Assembly (NCBI GenBank): GCA_025055285.1
Contig: JANWXM010000011.1
Span: 51,131-115,130 of the forward strand
Origin: Saprospiraceae bacterium
Lineage (GTDB): Bacteria > Bacteroidota > Bacteroidia > Chitinophagales > Saprospiraceae
Direction of reading: 5' to 3'
Length of the DNA: 64,000 nucleotides
Below the pieces are notes generated by a model, which saw only the letters and a program-made list of their open reading frames with translations, did not search any database and was not told the DNA's origin. Position 1 is the stretch's first letter, and every line of letters starts with the position of its first letter. Shown in pieces: positions 933-10,157 of the stretch. The position numbers were made by a program, and so were the translations under genes.

Positions 933-3900
933 CTAGCGGAAGATTTCGAGGTAACCTGTTAGCGGCTTGCGGTCAGGTGCCGGCAAGAAATAATAGAAAT
1001 AAGTGCCGTCAGGCAGATGTTGACCTGGGCGACCATTTAACGTGCCGCGCCAAGCCTTAGCTGGGTCGTTGCTGTAGGGTGAAGCTTCATATACTTTATC
1101 TCCCCATTGGTTATAGATAATGAGGCGATTGTTCGGATAAAGTTCTGTGTTTAAACAAGGTATTTCCAAATAGTCATTGATGTTGTCGTCGTTAGGCGTA
1201 ATGATATTTGGAATGTAGGTGCAGAAAGTTTCGCGCACCGTAATAGTTACCACTGCGTCGCTGCACAAATCAGGACAAGCAGCTGAGCAGAGGCGGTAAA
1301 TGAAATTCACTCGCCCGTTGTTTGGGCCAGCCTGGTAAGTGAAAAGACCGTTGCCCAATTCGGTCAGACCAGCCAATGGGCCAACGACAGTTACCGTAAA
1401 GTCATCGGCTTCATAGGTATCGTTAGCCAGCACGTTAAAGCCTTCGAGTTTGCCGATTGTCTCTGCCTCAAAGTCTGGGTCGTCCACTGCTTTAGGTTGC
1501 TTGCCGATGCGCACCAGGGCCGTGTCTTTGGGCGTATAGCAGCCGTTCACGATGGCCTGCACCGTATAGATGCCCGTGAGTTCCGGGGTGAGGTTTTCAA
1601 TGAGCAAATTGTTAGAGTTCGGGTAGGGTGGCTTTGGACCTGTCCAGAGATAAGTTGCTCCTGGGATGACAGGTGTGCTAATGACGATATCGTCGCCAGC
1701 ACAGCCAATTTTATCGCTAATTTGTGGCGCCAAGGGCTGCAGAGGCGACACAACAACAGTGACGGAGCATGCATCGGTGTTGCCTGCAGGATCAGAGGCG
1801 CGGAACGACAAGACATGCGTGCCAATTGGGAAAACTTCTCCGCTTTTGAGACCGCCAGTCTGCTCTACCGTCGGAGCACCGCAGTTATCTGTAGCGCTCG
1901 GTAGACTAAACTTCAGCATAGTGCCGTCGCACGACGCTGTAGCTTGGGCCGAAGTCAAAAATTTGGATGGGTCAGTCTTAATGGCTCCGCTAACGTCTAC
2001 TAAAATAGGTGAAGTTGGACAATTCAGCACCGGCGGGATGCTTTCTGTAACTGTAATGGTAAAAGTAGCTGACGCTGAATATCCTAGCGTATCAATTACT
2101 GTATAAATCACTACGGTAGTACCTACGAAAAAGGTGTCGCCTGGTTTGTGGGTGGCGGTTATCTTGGCTGGGGCACACACACCTGTAGGGGTGGGCGGTA
2201 CCCAAGTAGCAACCGCTGAACAGCCTACAAAGAATTGATTAGCGGGAATATTTTCAAAGCCGAGTGGAGGGCCGATAACTGTGATCTTGAAGGTACATTG
2301 GTCTTTGTTGCCGCTGGGGTCTTCCACCGTTACTTTCACCAACGTGTGGCCCACCGGATAGGTGTCGCCCGGCATCGAAGAGGCCTTGACGGTCGGCGCA
2401 GGCGCGCAGTTGTCGGTAGCCGTCGGCATCTTCCAATTGACCGCGATAGAACAGGCGCCATTGGAATTCACTACCGTGTCTTTCGGGCATCCGCTGAATT
2501 TGGGCGCCACCGTGTCAATGACCGTTACCTTAAAGCTGCAGGCCGCCGTGTTACCCCAAATGTCGGTAGCGGTGTACGTGACTGCGGTTGTTGTCTCCGG
2601 GAATGGCGTGCCAGAAGTATGGCTGCAAGTCAGCGTTACCGGGCTGCAGTTGTCCGAAACCTGCGGCGCCGTCCACGTCGCCACGGCTGTACAGTTGTTG
2701 GTGTACAGGGTGATGTCTTTCGGGCAGGCCACCAGTACGGGGGGGATGCTTTCCTTCACAGTGATGACGAAACTGCACGTCATCTTGTTGCCGGTGGTGT
2801 CCTGAGCAGTATAGGTAATCGTCGTTTGGCCAGTAGGTAGTATACTCCCTGCAGGGATGTTGGGCTTTGGTACGATAGGATAAGTATCGCAAGCATCTAC
2901 TACTTTAGGGTCATCCCAAAAAACTTTTGTTTCACATGTACCGGCAGGTGTAGTTACTGTAAAATCCTTTGGACAGTTGACGAGTTTGGGCGCTGTGGTG
3001 TCGGCTACCGTGATGCGGAACGTGCACGTGGCACTGTTGCCGCTGTCGTCTTTAGCCAAGAAGGACGCAACAATGGTTCCTACGGGAAGCGCTGTGCCAC
3101 TAATTATTGTACCTGCTACGCTGGGTTTAGCGTCGCAATTATCTAACACTTTCGGCGGGTCGAACGTTACGACCTGCGAGCACGTAGCCCCGTTGGCCGG
3201 TACATTCACATTGGGCGGGCAGGTGATGCTAGGCGGCGCCGTGTCTTTAACGGAAATGTTTTGCGTGATTTTCACCGTATTACCGCAATTGTCGGCAGCC
3301 GTCCACTGGCGGCGCAGCAAATAGGTGCCGCTGGATGGAGCACTGACGACGGTTTGGCCTTCGTAGGTGATTTGGACATCAGCATCGCAGTTGTCCGTGG
3401 CTGTCGGTTGTGCGGGTGCGGGCACGGCATCGCAGCTCACCGTGACATCGGCGGGTTTATTGGTGAAAGCTGGCGGTGTCAGGTCGCGCACGAAGATGAG
3501 CTGCTGAGCGGTCTTGGTGTTGCCGCACTCGTCAGTGGCCTGCCAGCGGCGAATGAGCGTATAGGTGTCTGGGCAGTTGCCGTCCACGCGCGTTTCACCT
3601 AAATAATTGAGTGTGGGCGCAAATGTGCAATTGTCGGAGGCTATGGGCGTGGCTACAGCAGGTACGGCACTGCATTCCACCGTGGCATTCGCCGGCACAA
3701 ACGTGAACGTTGGCGGTGTTTTGTCTTGCACCACGACGATCTGCTGAGCCGTCGCGGTGTTGCCGCAATTGTCCGTGGCCAACCAGCGGCGCGTCAGCGT
3801 GTACGTATTCGGGCAAGGGCCATTGCCGCGGTCTTCGCCTAGGAGGGCGATGTTCACGTTGGTGTCGCAGTTGTCCGTAGCCGTAGGGCTGACGACCGGC

Positions 3901-6900
3901 GGTACGCTTTCGCAGCTGACCGTTACGTTGGCCGGCACGGCGGTGAACACTGGCGGAACGAGGTCGCGCACGACAATTTTTTGCAAGGTAGCGGTCGTAT
4001 TGCCGCAGTTGTCGGTGGCCGTCCAGCGGCGCGTCAGTAAGTAAGCGTCTGGGCAGGCGCCGTCGGCGCGTGTTTCGCCATTATAAATGATAGTTACGTT
4101 GGCATCGCAATTGTCTGTAGCAAGAGGTGTGCCTATGGCCGGTACAGCGTCGCAAGAGACAGTTACATCAGCAGGTGCAAAGGTGAACGACGGTGGTTCT
4201 ACATCGCGCACAGTAATAATCTGCTGAGCCGATTGTGTGTTGCCACAGACATCTCTGGCCGTCCAGCGGCGCGTCAGGGTGTAAGTGTCTGGGCAAGGGC
4301 CATTGGCGCGCGTTTCACCGTCGTAAGTTATGCTCACGTTAGCGGCACAGTTGTCGGTTGCCGTAGGCGTACCTACCGCAGGCACGGCAGCACAGCTGAC
4401 CGTCGTGTTGGCTGGGATGAAGGTGAAAACAGGCTTGGTAGTATCTTGGACAGTCAGGCGCTGCTCGGCGATCGCGCTATTGCCACAGTTATCCACCGCT
4501 GTCCAGCGGCGAATGATGACGCCGCCACTGGCGCAGTCCGTGCCGATTTGCAGGTCGGTGGTCAGGCTTATGCTCACGTTGGCGTCGCAGTTGTCCGTAG
4601 CGATAGGATTGGCGATGTTCGGAATGGCGTCGCAGTTAACGGTAGCATCGGGCGGCACAAAGGTGAACACCGGCGGCGCTACGTCGCGCACTGCGATGGT
4701 CTGCAAGGCCGTTGTCGTGTTGCCACAGGCATCGGCAGCCGTCCAGCGGCGCTCGAGCGTGTAGGTATCCGGGCAAGAGCCGTTGAGGCGTGTTTCGCCG
4801 TTGAAAGTGATGGTTACGCTGGCCGTGCAATTATCCGTGGCCGTCGGCGCGCCTACAGCCGGCACGGCTTCGCAGCTGACTGTCAGGTTGACAGGTACGA
4901 AGGTGAAAGCCGGCGCTGTCAAATCTTGCACGGCAATAATCTGCTGGGTTGCAACCGAGTTGCCGCAGTTGTCGGTCGCCGTCCAGCGGCGCGTCAGGGT
5001 GTACGTATTCGGGCAAGGGCCGTCGGCGCGCGTTTCGCCCAAATAGGCAATGCTGACGCTGGGGTCGCAGTTGTCCGTGGCCGTAGGTGTCGCTACTGCC
5101 GGCACGTTTTCGCACGAAACAGTAACATTTGCTGTCACAAAAGTGAAGACGGGCGCTGTCAGGTCGCGCACAGTGATGACTTGCTGTGTTTCTGTGGAAT
5201 TACCGCAGTTATCTGTGGCTGTCCAGCGGCGCGTCAGGGTGTAGGTATCTGGGCAAGGGCCGTCGGTGCGCGTTTCGCCCAAAAAGGCAATAGCTACATT
5301 GGCGTCGCAATTATCTGTTGCAGTAGGGGTATTTAAAGCTGGCACATTTTCACATGACACCGTGACGCTGGCGGGCACAAAAGTGAATACCGGTGCGACA
5401 ATATCGCGTACGGTTAAGACTTGCTGAGTGACCGCGAAATTGCCGCAGTTGTCAGTGGCTCTCCAGCGGCGCGTCAGGGTATAGGTGTCCGGGCAGGGTC
5501 CGTCGGTGCGCGTTTCGCCCAGGTAGGCGATGCTCACGTCGGCGTCGCAGTTGTCAGTGGCCGTAGGTGTTCCCACGGCGGGCACGTTTTCACAGCTGAC
5601 GGTCACATTCGCCGGCACGGCGGTGAATGCCGGCGGCGTCAGGTCGCGCACGGTGATGATTTGCTCGACCGAGCGCGTATTGCCGCACTGGTCGGCGGCC
5701 GTCCAGCGGCGCGTCAGCGTATAGGTGTCCGGGCAGGCGCCGTCGGCGCGCGTTTCGCCCTCGTAGAAAATGTTTACGGTAGCATCGCAGTTGTCCTGGG
5801 CAACGGGCGTTGCCACGGGCGGCACGTTTTCGCAACTAACGGTTACGTGCGGCGGCGAGAAGGTGAACACCGGACGTTTGACATCCTGGACGGTCAGGCG
5901 CTGCTCGGCCGTTTGCGCGTTGCCGCAAGCGTCAGTAGCTGTCCAGCGGCGCACCAGCTCATAGGTGTTGGCGCAGGGGCCATTGAGGCGCGTTTCGCCA
6001 TTATAAGTAATCGTTACCGAACTGGTGCAATTGTCGGAAGCGATAGGCGTGCCCACGGCGGGCACGCTATCGCAGTGCACCGTAGCATTTGCCGGCACGA
6101 AGGTAAATACCGGCGGCTTCAGGTCTTGCACGGTAATGGTTTGCACAGCGGAGGCGGTGTTTGAGCATTTGTCCACCGCCGTCCACTGGCGCTTGAGTGT
6201 GTAAGTATGCGGGCATGGGCCATTCAGGCGCGTCTCGCCGTTGTAGGAGACTAGCACGTCCACGGCACAGTTATCGGTGGCAGTGGGCGTTGCTGGCGTT
6301 GGTATGCTTTCGCAACTAACCGTAATGTCGTTGGGGAAAGAGGTAAAGACGGGCTTCGTCTGGTCGCGCACGGTGATGCGCTGCGATGCTGAAGCGGTAT
6401 TGCCGCAGTTGTCGGTCGCCGTCCAGCGGCGCACCAAGACATACTCGTCGGGACAAGGGCCATTGGTGCGGGTTTCGCCCAAGTAAGCAATGTTAACGCT
6501 GGCGTCACAGTTGTCAGAAGCGCTAGGTTGGCCAGGTGCAGGCACGGCATCGCACGAGACAGTGGCGTCTGGCGGCACGAAAGTAAAAGCCGGCGGCGTT
6601 AGGTCGCGCACGGTAATGACCTGTTCGGCAGTGCGCGTATTGCCACACAGGTCTGTAGCCGTCCAGCGGCGGCGCAGCGTATAGGTGTCATCGCAGGGGC
6701 CGTTGGTGCGCGTTTCGCCGTTGTAGTTGATTTCCACGTCATTGGCGCAGTTATCAGTGGCTTGCGGAAGGCCGGGCGCTGGGATGTTTTCGCAGCTGAC
6801 AGTCGTGTTCGCTGGCACAAAGACAAATACTGGACGTGTGGTATCCTGAACCACCAGCACTTGTTCGGCAATAGCCGTGTTGCCACAGTTATCAGTGGCT

Positions 6901-9900
6901 ATCCAGCGACGCGTTACCGTGCCGCCACTGGCGCAGCTGCCGCTGGTTTGCGTAACGCCGGCAAAGGTGATGGTTACGCTGTTGTCGCAATTGTCGGTGG
7001 CTGCCGGAGAGCCAAGGCTTGGGATGGCCTCGCAGTTCACAGTGGCGTTCGGGGGCACGAACGTAAAGGCCGGTGGATTTATATCCTGTACAGTAATGAT
7101 TTGCTGAGCGCTGGTCGTGTTGCCGCAATTGTCTATGGCTATCCAGCGGCGTACAAGCGTATAGTTGTCGGGGCAAGCGCCATCGAGTCGCGTCTGCCCG
7201 TCGTAGGTTACCGTTACGCTGGCGTCGCAGTTGTCGGTAGCTGCTGCTGTGCCCACGGGCGGTATGGCGCTGCAGCTGACCGTAATGTTTGCCGGCGTTT
7301 GTGTAAAGGTTGGCGGCGTCTGGTCGCGCACTGTAATGACTTGCTCGGCTGTGCGCGTGTTGCCGCACTGGTCGGCGGCTGTCCAGCGGCGCGTCAGAAA
7401 GTACGTATCGGGGCAAGGGCCATTGGTGCGCGTCTGGCCGTCGTAGTTGATGGCAGCCGCGGGCGAGCAGTTGTCGGTAGCCACCGGATTGCCTACGGGC
7501 GGAAGGGCTTCACAGCTGGTGGTCGTGTTGGCCGGCACGAAGGTAAACACCGGCGCTTCCGTATCGCGCACCGTGATGGTTTGGGTCGAAACGGTTGTAT
7601 TGCCACAGGCGTCGGTGGCCTGCCAGCGGCGCAGCAACGCGTAGTTGTTTGGGCAAATGCCGTCGTTGCGCGACTCGCCTAAATACGTTACTGTTACCGA
7701 GGCGGCGCAGTTGTCAGCAGCAGCAGGCGTCGCCTCGGGCGGTATAGCATCGCAGCTCACGGTAGCGTTTGCCGGGAAGTTGGTAAAGGTCGGCGGCGTC
7801 AGGTCGCGGACAGTCAGCACTTGCGTTGCAGAGGCGGTGTTGCCACAGTTGTCCGTAGCCGTCCATCGGCGCGTCAGCGTATAAAAGTTGTGACAGGCGC
7901 CGTCGTTGCGCGTTTCGCCGTCATAGGTAATGCTGACGACGTTGTCACAGTTATCGGTGGCTACGGGGTTGCCCACAATGGGTATGGCATCGCAACTCAC
8001 CGTGGCGTCGGCCGGCACAGAAGTGAAGGCTGGAGGCGTAAAGTCCTGCACGACAATAACTTGCTCGGCAGAGGCTGTGTTTCCGCAGTTGTCGGTAGCG
8101 GTCCAGCGGCGGCGCAAAGTGTAGCTATCGGGGCAGGCGCCATTGGTGCGCGTTTCGCCGTTGTAAACGATGCTGACGCTGACGTCGCAGTTATCAGAAG
8201 CCACAGGAGTACCTACGCCCGGGATAGCACTACAGCTGACTGTTACCGCCGGCGGCACGAAAGTGAACGAAGGGGGCGTACTGTCCTGCACGGTAATGAT
8301 TTGCTCCGCAGTGGCCGTGTTGCCACAGCCATCGGTGGCTATCCAGCGGCGGCGCAAAGTGTAGCTGTCAGGGCAGGCGCCGTCAGTGCGCGTTTCGCCG
8401 TTATAAATGATAGTGATACTGCTGCTGCAATTGTCGGTGGCTGTGGGAATGCCTACGGCAGGTATGGCGTTGCAGCTCACAGCGACATTAGCCGGCACGA
8501 ACGTAAAAGTGGGGGGTAGATTATCTACGACCCGTACGTGCTGCGTAGCCGTGGCGCTGTTGCCCGCGGCGTCAAAGGCTCGATATGTACGCAGCATTTG
8601 AAGCGTGTCGCCGGGGCAGCCACTACCCGCAAGAACAACATCGCTGACATGGACAATGGAGGTAACTCCGCAATTGTCGGAGGCCGACACAGCAGTAAGC
8701 TCAGGCGCTGGGACTGCCGAGAGGCAGGTAATACCTGTCAACGCGGGCAAGTTGTCAGCCGTGGGCGGCTGGGTGTCGTCCACGCGTATAGTAAACGTGC
8801 AGGTCACAGCATTCGCGCCGTCGTCTACTTGATAGGTAACGGTTGTAATGCCGCTGGAAAAGGGCACCTTGTTCGATAGTTGCCCTTCTCCACTGCCAAT
8901 AGTGGCGCCCGTGAGTGTATAGGTGACGCCCACTGTAGGACAGTTGTCGCTGAATGTGGCGTCAATATTGGCTATCAATGTAGTACATGTGCCCGGATTG
9001 GCTACACCTACTGCATTTGGCGGACAAGTTAGCGTTGGCGGTGTATTATCTTGTACTGGAACTTTAAACGTATGCACCCCTGTGCACCCTTTGCTATCGG
9101 TAATGGTTACCGTGTAGGTTCCACCCGGAACGTTTGTCAAATTCCTGGTTTTGGCGCCATTCGACCAGCGATAGGTATAAGGTGCTACACCACCCGAGGG
9201 TGTAAGATTTAAGGCGCCTGTAGGTACATCTAAACACGGAACTGGCGTGGCGGTAGCAGTGGCGGTTATGGGCGTGTTCAACGTGACCACAGCCGACCCT
9301 CCACAGGTTAATAAGTAAGACGGCGTACCATCGTAGGGCGTAAAAATCGCCGACATCTCCACGCGGTAACTGCTTGTCTTTGTCGGTGTAACAACATGAG
9401 GGCCTTTGCCCTGTCCAATATTAGGTGACCACAGAATACTGTAGTTGAGATCTCCGCTAGTAATTACACTAAGGCGCACCGTATCACCTGGCTGGCAAAT
9501 GGTGCCATCGTTGGGAACGCCCGAATTTTCAGCGGTAACAACGTAAGCGTTACAACATATTCCTGCGCGAGTAACGCAACCTGCATTATTGACATCCGAA
9601 AAGGCATGTGGCGCAGTAAGGCCGTTGCAGTCTACCACCTTTATTGTATCGAAATAAAGCGCTCGAAAAGAGTTACAATCTGGTGCATTGCTCGATTTTG
9701 GACGAAACTTTCCCCCGTTGATCAGCACTACTTTAGCACGGTCGCCCAATTTCAAATAGGCATTAGCTGTCCATTGAATGGTGCCGCCATCTACTAGCAA
9801 AAGCCCTTCAAAAGGCACAAAGCCAATGAGTGGCTCGTAGTTGACATTTACTAAAAAAGAGTCTCGAATAATGATAGTGTCTGTCCCTGGCGGACAACTT

Positions 9901-10157
9901 GCAAAGGGATTGTCCGACGCGCGGATGAAGCTGTTGAAGACGCAGGTTTGCCCTGAGGCGAGCTGTCCGGCGAAAAGAAGATGCAGTGCGAGAAAAGAGG
10001 TTGAAAGCCAGGTAAATCTCCTTTGAGATTCAGTGCTAAAGGCCTTACTAGCCGAGGCGCATAAGTTATATGGATGCCACATAGGAAAAGTTGCGACTGT
10101 TTTCGGTGGAGCGTAGTGAGCAAGAGTAGGTGAACTAGCAACACTCACAGCACCCAT
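933..10157 (-). CDS. Giant secreted repeat protein (HYR/Ig-like repeats, gliding-motility-associated type B T9SS C-terminal domain), SprB-like adhesin candidate
   Basis: 3074-aa ORF; hydrophobic signal-like segment (LSTSFLALHLLFAGQLASGQ), SprB-type 'YTYRWSNGAKTRNLTNVPGGTYTVTITDSKGC' module, 22 x 80-aa repeats, several HYR repeats, and terminal 'CTYIPNIITPNDDNINDYLEIPC...IYNQWGDKVYEA...LPDGTYFYYF' type B CTD. True start is probably an internal Met near the signal peptide. Confidence 0.93.
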   Translation of the reverse strand: MGAVSVASSPTLAHYAPPKTVATFPMWHPYNLCASASKAFSTESQRRFTWLSTSFLALHLLFAGQLASGQTCVFNSFIRASDNPFASCPPGTDTIIIRDSFLVNVNYEPLIGFVPFEGLLLVDGGTIQWTANAYLKLGDRAKVVLINGGKFRPKSSNAPDCNSFRALYFDTIKVVDCNGLTAPHAFSDVNNAGCVTRAGICCNAYVVTAENSGVPNDGTICQPGDTVRLSVITSGDLNYSILWSPNIGQGKGPHVVTPTKTSSYRVEMSAIFTPYDGTPSYLLTCGGSAVVTLNTPITATATATPVPCLDVPTGALNLTPSGGVAPYTYRWSNGAKTRNLTNVPGGTYTVTITDSKGCTGVHTFKVPVQDNTPPTLTCPPNAVGVANPGTCTTLIANIDATFSDNCPTVGVTYTLTGATIGSGEGQLSNKVPFSSGITTVTYQVDDGANAVTCTFTIRVDDTQPPTADNLPALTGITCLSAVPAPELTAVSASDNCGVTSIVHVSDVVLAGSGCPGDTLQMLRTYRAFDAAGNSATATQHVRVVDNLPPTFTFVPANVAVSCNAIPAVGIPTATDNCSSSITIIYNGETRTDGACPDSYTLRRRWIATDGCGNTATAEQIITVQDSTPPSFTFVPPAVTVSCSAIPGVGTPVASDNCDVSVSIVYNGETRTNGACPDSYTLRRRWTATDNCGNTASAEQVIVVQDFTPPAFTSVPADATVSCDAIPIVGNPVATDNCDNVVSITYDGETRNDGACHNFYTLTRRWTATDNCGNTASATQVLTVRDLTPPTFTNFPANATVSCDAIPPEATPAAADNCAASVTVTYLGESRNDGICPNNYALLRRWQATDACGNTTVSTQTITVRDTEAPVFTFVPANTTTSCEALPPVGNPVATDNCSPAAAINYDGQTRTNGPCPDTYFLTRRWTAADQCGNTRTAEQVITVRDQTPPTFTQTPANITVSCSAIPPVGTAAATDNCDASVTVTYDGQTRLDGACPDNYTLVRRWIAIDNCGNTTSAQQIITVQDINPPAFTFVPPNATVNCEAIPSLGSPAATDNCDNSVTITFAGVTQTSGSCASGGTVTRRWIATDNCGNTAIAEQVLVVQDTTRPVFVFVPANTTVSCENIPAPGLPQATDNCANDVEINYNGETRTNGPCDDTYTLRRRWTATDLCGNTRTAEQVITVRDLTPPAFTFVPPDATVSCDAVPAPGQPSASDNCDASVNIAYLGETRTNGPCPDEYVLVRRWTATDNCGNTASASQRITVRDQTKPVFTSFPNDITVSCESIPTPATPTATDNCAVDVLVSYNGETRLNGPCPHTYTLKRQWTAVDKCSNTASAVQTITVQDLKPPVFTFVPANATVHCDSVPAVGTPIASDNCTSSVTITYNGETRLNGPCANTYELVRRWTATDACGNAQTAEQRLTVQDVKRPVFTFSPPHVTVSCENVPPVATPVAQDNCDATVNIFYEGETRADGACPDTYTLTRRWTAADQCGNTRSVEQIITVRDLTPPAFTAVPANVTVSCENVPAVGTPTATDNCDADVSIAYLGETRTDGPCPDTYTLTRRWRATDNCGNFAVTQQVLTVRDIVAPVFTFVPASVTVSCENVPALNTPTATDNCDANVAIAFLGETRTDGPCPDTYTLTRRWTATDNCGNSTETQQVITVRDLTAPVFTFVTANVTVSCENVPAVATPTATDNCDPSVSIAYLGETRADGPCPNTYTLTRRWTATDNCGNSVATQQIIAVQDLTAPAFTFVPVNLTVSCEAVPAVGAPTATDNCTASVTITFNGETRLNGSCPDTYTLERRWTAADACGNTTTALQTIAVRDVAPPVFTFVPPDATVNCDAIPNIANPIATDNCDANVSISLTTDLQIGTDCASGGVIIRRWTAVDNCGNSAIAEQRLTVQDTTKPVFTFIPANTTVSCAAVPAVGTPTATDNCAANVSITYDGETRANGPCPDTYTLTRRWTARDVCGNTQSAQQIITVRDVEPPSFTFAPADVTVSCDAVPAIGTPLATDNCDANVTIIYNGETRADGACPDAYLLTRRWTATDNCGNTTATLQKIVVRDLVPPVFTAVPANVTVSCESVPPVVSPTATDNCDTNVNIALLGEDRGNGPCPNTYTLTRRWLATDNCGNTATAQQIVVVQDKTPPTFTFVPANATVECSAVPAVATPIASDNCTFAPTLNYLGETRVDGNCPDTYTLIRRWQATDECGNTKTAQQLIFVRDLTPPAFTNKPADVTVSCDAVPAPAQPTATDNCDADVQITYEGQTVVSAPSSGTYLLRRQWTAADNCGNTVKITQNISVKDTAPPSITCPPNVNVPANGATCSQVVTFDPPKVLDNCDAKPSVAGTIISGTALPVGTIVASFLAKDDSGNSATCTFRITVADTTAPKLVNCPKDFTVTTPAGTCETKVFWDDPKVVDACDTYPIVPKPNIPAGSILPTGQTTITYTAQDTTGNKMTCSFVITVKESIPPVLVACPKDITLYTNNCTAVATWTAPQVSDNCSPVTLTCSHTSGTPFPETTTAVTYTATDIWGNTAACSFKVTVIDTVAPKFSGCPKDTVVNSNGACSIAVNWKMPTATDNCAPAPTVKASSMPGDTYPVGHTLVKVTVEDPSGNKDQCTFKITVIGPPLGFENIPANQFFVGCSAVATWVPPTPTGVCAPAKITATHKPGDTFFVGTTVVIYTVIDTLGYSASATFTITVTESIPPVLNCPTSPILVDVSGAIKTDPSKFLTSAQATASCDGTMLKFSLPSATDNCGAPTVEQTGGLKSGEVFPIGTHVLSFRASDPAGNTDACSVTVVVSPLQPLAPQISDKIGCAGDDIVISTPVIPGATYLWTGPKPPYPNSNNLLIENLTPELTGIYTVQAIVNGCYTPKDTALVRIGKQPKAVDDPDFEAETIGKLEGFNVLANDTYEADDFTVTVVGPLAGLTELGNGLFTYQAGPNNGRVNFIYRLCSAACPDLCSDAVVTITVRETFCTYIPNIITPNDDNINDYLEIPCLNTELYPNNRLIIYNQWGDKVYEASPYSNDPAKAWRGTLNGRPGQHLPDGTYFYYFLPAPDRKPLTGYLEIFR
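3231..8510 (-). repeat. Array of 22 tandem 240-bp (80-aa) in-frame repeats
   Basis: Consensus xFTFVPANxTVSCxxVPxxxTPxATDNCxxxVxIxYxGETRxxGxCPxTYTLxRRWTATDNCGNTxxAxQxITVRDxTPP; boundaries at PP codons give exactly 5280 bp = 22 x 240. Confidence 0.95.

Follow-up and report, generated by a model that had tools for sequence, protein, structure and literature searches.

One large open reading frame (ORF) lies on the minus strand of the window, i.e., the stretch of 64,000 nucleotides from a Saprospiraceae genome that was analysed, and it carries the tandem array described here. The strand was absent from the preliminary description of this DNA. The true start is probably Met26 at position 10082, in a MWHPY motif common to the orthologues L048 and L049, and a putative signal peptide follows it; both were assigned by eye. 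No Pfam family was found for the N-terminal region at aa 70-300. The AF2 model of this N-terminal head (pLDDT 49.8) was unreliable and was left unused. The parts of the protein and the neighbouring carrier gene are listed in Table 1.

Table 1. Features of the array gene and its neighbour, with positions in the window.
Feature	Position	Strand	Remark
Whole surface protein ORF	10157-933	-	3,074 aa
N-terminal (distal) region, aa 70-300	9258-9950	-	Conserved in close orthologues only
SprB repeat (PF13573), aa 300-335	9153-9260	-	Profile match
HYR domain (PF02494) ahead of the array	8781-9053	-	Without Cys 52 and without Cys 68
Start-cap unit (unit 0), aa 461-543	8529-8777	-	Cys 52 equivalent present, Ala at column 68
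22 tandem HYR_4C units, 80 aa each, aa 544-2303	3249-8528	-	PF23237 profile and alignment; genome coordinates G000:C2:54379-59658
End-cap unit (unit 22)	3249-3488	-	Cys 68 present, Ser at column 52
Six HYR/HYR-like domains past the array	1749-3248	-	Neither Cys 52 nor Cys 68
C-terminal type IX secretion sorting domain, CHU_C (PF13585)	945-1214	-	Profile match
PorP/SprF-family outer-membrane carrier	1-888, gene cut by the window edge	-	Whole gene within G000:C2:51035-52045

The array was cut into domains at the conserved boundary xDxTPPxF...V. In this phase 22 units of 80 aa fill 5,280 bp, so the 22 x 240 bp periodicity reported earlier was exact. The interval reported with it, 3231-8510, covers the same array, but it was cut six codons later, so that its last unit extended by 18 bp into the HYR domain behind the array. 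The recurring cysteines, formerly numbered 13, 28, 46 and 62, correspond to columns 19, 34, 52 and 68 in the domain phase (C19, C34, C52 and C68). C19, C34 and C68 were present in all 22 units and C52 in 21, so that the description of four cysteines per unit held for every unit except the last.

The units are diverged from each other. Their mean identity was 60% in protein (range 43-80%) and 63% in DNA, with no drop in identity with distance along the array. Third codon positions were 45% identical between units and the median dS was 1.5, which indicates that the units are old and that silent sites are near saturation. The L048 orthologue, from another Saprospiraceae MAG, has the same 22 units, and the best L048 match of a unit was the unit at its own position in 21 of 22 cases. 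Thus, the array predates the split and homogenisation is not under way. Recent duplication or homogenisation as the source of the equal length was ruled out by this positional matching together with the high dS. Past aa 1200, an apparent mosaic among the window, L048 and L049 was produced by the alignment, because the L049 contig is truncated.

The constant length had been read as a sign of strict selection on the length of the rod. This reading agrees with the tree of the units, which holds about 556 inferred amino-acid substitutions and zero length changes, and with arrays of like identity elsewhere, which usually differ in unit length. However, the proteins of the window and L048, aligned over 3,027 aa, differed by 437 substitutions and by no indel inside or outside the array, and the length constancy is therefore not special to the array. 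The number of domains also varies among orthologues, i.e., 13 in L055, 17 in L051, L053 and L056, and 23 in the window and L048 with the start cap counted. In addition, L051, L053 and L056 have one unit each of 81, 82 or 83 aa. These more distant orthologues (L051, L053, L055 and L056) were recognised by the common N-terminal region. Unit length ranged from 77 to 98 aa across 32 arrays, and arrays elsewhere with the same cysteine lacing had units of 77-86 aa. L081 (82 aa), L122 and L105 (both 79 aa) were uniform, and many of the 32 arrays were mixed in unit length at the same divergence. The commonest insertions in relatives fell after columns 10, 19-25 and 45, and the commonest deletions at columns 10, 37, 44 and 53-55. 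The array of the window is unusually uniform for its divergence, yet this uniformity is not required by the design. The absence of indels from the array was confirmed, while strict selection on rod length is a doubtful reason for the exact 80 aa.

In profile search, the protein matched Pfam HYR_4C (PF23237) in 23 stretches, with E = 1e-124 and 407 bits against a cut-off of 27, which chance can not explain. The units had been suggested to form a domain family separate from HYR. They are indeed distinct from HYR, but the family already exists as HYR_4C. In the genome scan, all HYR (PF02494) matches in the ORF fell outside the 22 units, and membership of the units in HYR was rejected. The strand A and strand G cysteines of one domain, which are present in the flanking HYR domains, are absent from the 22 units. 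Of 41 near relatives, 33 carried HYR_4C, as did 40 of 297 genomes sampled from the phylum, and a single genome held up to about 100 copies. The closest named relatives were Saprospiraceae MAGs. Phage DNA search and PHROGs gave no match.

A confident AF2 model of units 13-15 (pLDDT 96.8, pTM 0.76) was essentially all-beta, and its best Foldseek matches were cadherin chains and SraP. PDB search by sequence gave nothing significant, i.e., no solved relative. Each 80-aa unit is most likely an Ig-like (cadherin-like) beta-sandwich. The predicted strands 39-49, 56-65 and 71-80 are joined in succession by two hairpins, which would place the C52 hairpin and the C68 hairpin at opposite poles of the domain. 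C52, between strands 39-49 and 56-65, would sit at the C-terminal pole, and C68, between strands 56-65 and 71-80, at the N-terminal pole, so that C52 of one domain would come to face C68 of the following one. This geometry was read only from the predicted secondary structure. A bond between C19 and C34 within the domain is most likely, although C19 and C34 were not lost together and this pairing is assumed only.

Co-occurrence of the cysteines was studied in units that were gathered from fetched loci by a profile built on the 22 units, with the presence of each cysteine scored per unit. In 1,148 adjacent pairs with strict columns, the odds ratio was 99 between C52 of unit i and C68 of unit i+1, and 28 between C52 and C68 of the same unit. 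The reverse register, C68(i)-C52(i+1), was rejected, with an odds ratio of 12 in the same first set and with run ends that point the opposite way. When units with C52 only were coded as n, with C68 only as c and with both as B, the runs of units followed the order n-B-B-...-B-c. The array of the window and that of L048 are each coded as -nB(21)c------. The true N-terminal run ends were n, B and c in 35, 29 and 3 cases and the true C-terminal run ends were c, B and n in 29, 39 and 1 cases (p = 1e-14, a value that overstates independence since the rows are related by descent, an effect that the per-protein vote and the order shuffle given below lessen and do not remove). Several runs finish in a unit with both cysteines, where either one cysteine is unexplained or a further domain went unrecognised.

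A second set of sixty further loci from other genomes gave a weaker signal with strict columns, i.e., odds ratios of 15.7 between units versus 12.0 within the unit, because some families carry the cysteine one residue earlier (DCxGN). The strict single-column coding was too narrow for these families and was replaced by loop coding, in which a cysteine anywhere in columns 48-56 and 65-70 was accepted. The first set then gave counts of 904/15/2/86 for C52(i)/C68(i+1) (1,007 pairs, 98% agreement) and the second gave 444/16/0/72 (532 pairs, 97% agreement), with lower agreement within the unit. The loop definition was widened after second-set sequences had been seen, which makes the second set less than fully blind. 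By eye, 26 of the 33 discordant pairs involved a different HYR-like subtype without C19. Among the others, one fell in masked sequence, one had a loop with a long insert, three came from matches that stopped short of the loop and two from HYR domains with additional cysteines.

The two cysteines could also be bonded in the usual way. In that case the units would be ordinary four-cysteine domains with C19-C34 and C52-C68 both inside one domain, and neighbours would be joined by the peptide linker alone. Most units hold both cysteines and the within-unit odds ratio given above is strong too, as this arrangement would predict. The informative cases are those where the two rules differ, i.e., where the state of the FG loop is not the same in units i and i+1. 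There the between-domain rule was right 56:0 in the first set and 52:3 in the second, which leaves the intradomain rule right in 0/56 and 3/55 cases. With one vote per protein, the between-unit rule won 49:0 (1 tie) and 29:1 (2 ties) among informative proteins. Shuffling the order of units within proteins gave an agreement no higher than 0.873 in the first set (observed 0.983) and 0.918 in the second (observed 0.970), and none of 1,000 trials came up to the observed value. Also, the end units retain exactly one of the two cysteines, and the predicted sandwich carries the two loops at opposite ends, which makes a C52-C68 bond inside the domain unlikely. The intradomain bond is contradicted by the co-occurrence data, and we consider it highly improbable.

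An unbiased mutual-information scan over all 6,400 inter-domain column pairs, with same-column pairs counted too, placed 52(i)-68(i+1) at the top with z = 9. Among pairs of different columns, 54-67 followed. The top intradomain pair was 11-74, i.e., the strand A-G cysteines of HYR, which served as a positive control. The co-occurrence method likewise recovered this pair inside one domain, with counts of 161/1/10/926. The cysteine totals agree with bonds between domains, being mostly odd (3 or 5) in c units and mostly even in B units.

The same pairs could in principle be formed between separate protein molecules, with parallel shafts cross-linked into a bundle, since co-occurrence alone can not separate one chain from two. 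However, the offset of one unit, which took rank 1 in the scan, is what is predicted for neighbours in one chain, whereas a bundle would need a fixed stagger of one domain. Such a bundle is regarded as very unlikely.

Cys 52 of one domain is very probably disulfide-bonded to Cys 68 of the next, which would make the array a laced rod of neighbouring domains. The idea of a disulfide-stabilised rod, which the preliminary description had put forward, is supported more strongly than it was proposed, and half of the disulfides appear to be inter-domain from the co-occurrence data. Units 0 to 22, 23 domains in all, would be laced by 22 bonds, and the caps at both ends would be without the cysteine that they do not need. 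The start cap would bond solely to the following domain and the end cap solely to the preceding one. The lack of C68 in unit 0 and of C52 in unit 22 would be explained in this way, because either cysteine would be partnerless there. A pulling force would travel along a covalent ladder. As C68 and C52 are 16 residues apart in each domain, unfolding to the full 80 residues would be blocked. Under load, the ladder would restrict the opening of domains, with stiff junctions between them, and pulling could not undo the chain one domain at a time. Close to the membrane, the unlaced HYR domains would carry the laced rod, and the rod would present the N-terminal region, most likely for use as an adhesin. 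The bonds and the mechanics of the rod are deduced from sequence. It is probable that HYR_4C arrays in general are covalently laced rods with dedicated start and end caps, serving as stiff surface stalks that resist unfolding, in Bacteroidota at large and perhaps in a few further phyla.

By its sequence, the array protein is a type-IX-secreted surface protein. The CHU_C sorting domain scored 76 bits against a cut-off of 27, and TIGR04131 at the C-terminus was just under its threshold (32.9 versus 35). The PorP/SprF carrier gene is directly downstream (TIGR03519, 193.8 bits versus 90.55), and this neighbour is also conserved in L048. Type B substrates are anchored by PorP/SprF-like carriers (PMC9143113; PMC12635249), and in F. 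johnsoniae SprF is linked through its Cys-X-Cys tail to GldK, a protein of the track (PMC12635249). The type B-like C-terminal domain, the PorP/SprF neighbour and the SprB repeat would all suit an SprB-like gliding adhesin that is driven along the cell by the gliding track, and a GldJ-like gene was present as a match below the family cut-off. However, the carrier tail ends in ...MSNPRFFM, with no cysteine and thus no Cys-X-Cys, and 37 of 38 PorP-family carriers in the fetched loci likewise had no cysteine in the last 14 residues. The role of gliding adhesin is therefore unlikely. A carrier without tail cysteine favours, with moderate confidence, a stalk that is fixed or passively anchored.

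Long bacterial adhesins need shafts able to withstand pulling force. The cap rule, i.e., a first unit without C68 and a last unit without C52, allows the claim of a laced rod to be tested cheaply. It also suggests that the "4 cysteines" in the name of PF23237 are not two bonds within one domain. If the claim is true, bonds from domain to domain can be read from sequence, and the co-occurrence approach would be a simple route to such disulfides in other tandem repeats.

The closest known systems include PF23237 HYR_4C; all units belong to it, and the four conserved cysteines and the tandem arrays in Bacteroidota are common to both. The family is already known; literature search for HYR_4C turned up no paper, and nothing relevant came up on adhesins with disulfides between domains. 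The domain-to-domain bond and the caps appear undescribed, as no description of such a bond in HYR_4C was found in the part of the literature that was covered. PF02494 HYR, including HycP of Clostridium cellulolyticum with its 23 HYR modules (PMC3723904), has in common with the array an Ig-like module of similar length, long tandem arrays and equivalents of C19/C34. HYR differs in its own intradomain pair of strand A and strand G cysteines and has no 52/68 pair. SprB/SprF of F. johnsoniae is also a very large surface protein with a type B-like C-terminal domain and an adjoining PorP/SprF carrier (PMC9143113; PMC12635249). In contrast, the carrier here has no twin-cysteine tail and the stalk is made of HYR_4C units. 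The ectodomain chains of cadherins and SraP, as the best fold matches to three tandem units, share fold similarity only. The junction here has a predicted disulfide where cadherins have calcium. Cadherins stiffen their domain junctions with calcium, and Gram-positive pili use isopeptide bonds. Thrombospondin type 3 repeats resemble the array in that successive repeats are joined by disulfides, but they are calcium-wrapped, are not Ig-like and belong to an animal protein. If the bond proposed here is true, disulfides between successive Ig-like domains would add a further solution to isopeptide bonds and calcium.

The rule that C52 of one unit and C68 of the following unit are present or absent together has exceptions, and the majority of these belonged to an additional HYR-like subtype without C19. 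This subtype was found in loci L057, L054, L050, L060, L206, and L217. Strands A and G and the 48-56 loop each carry Cys in this subtype, which also has Cys at DNC34; these cysteines are probably paired differently from the rule.

Among loci L070, L072, L210, and L211, some arrays showed alternation, either of two unit lengths (79/80 or 79/82) or of units carrying only C68 (c) and only C52 (n), i.e., cncncn. The alternating arrays suggest growth by two-domain blocks, and the cncncn order suggests that the predicted bond is formed only inside each block.

Runs of HYR_4C units capped by n, c, or both were also found in L064, L071, and L097, from MAGs labelled Planctomycetota, Gammaproteobacteria, and Bipolaricaulota. 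These occurrences may be due to transfer or binning error.

The G+C content was 60% in the array versus 50% in the window. Several long ORFs run antisense to the array, on the + strand, and are probably a by-product of codon use.

Array and second HYR-rich cluster of the same genome
Feature	Location	HYR-rich ORFs
HYR_4C array	window 3249-8528 (-)	
Second HYR-rich cluster (L131)	G000:C22:2835-17400	two (2,895 and 1,609 aa)

The PorP/SprF carrier of the second cluster is 47% identical to the array-adjoining carrier and likewise ends in MSNPRFFM. A twin-Cys tail like that of SprF was found in one of the 38 PorP-family carriers of the loci covered, i.e., that of Zhouia amylolytica (L125, NCKCPRYF), whose contig also bears an HYR_4C array. 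Several other PorP-family carriers of the own genome (L133-L141) have a C-P-x-F end or a single Cys near the C-terminus, in which they differ from the array-adjoining carrier. In this genome, these Cys-bearing tails might correspond to the twin-Cys tail of SprF.
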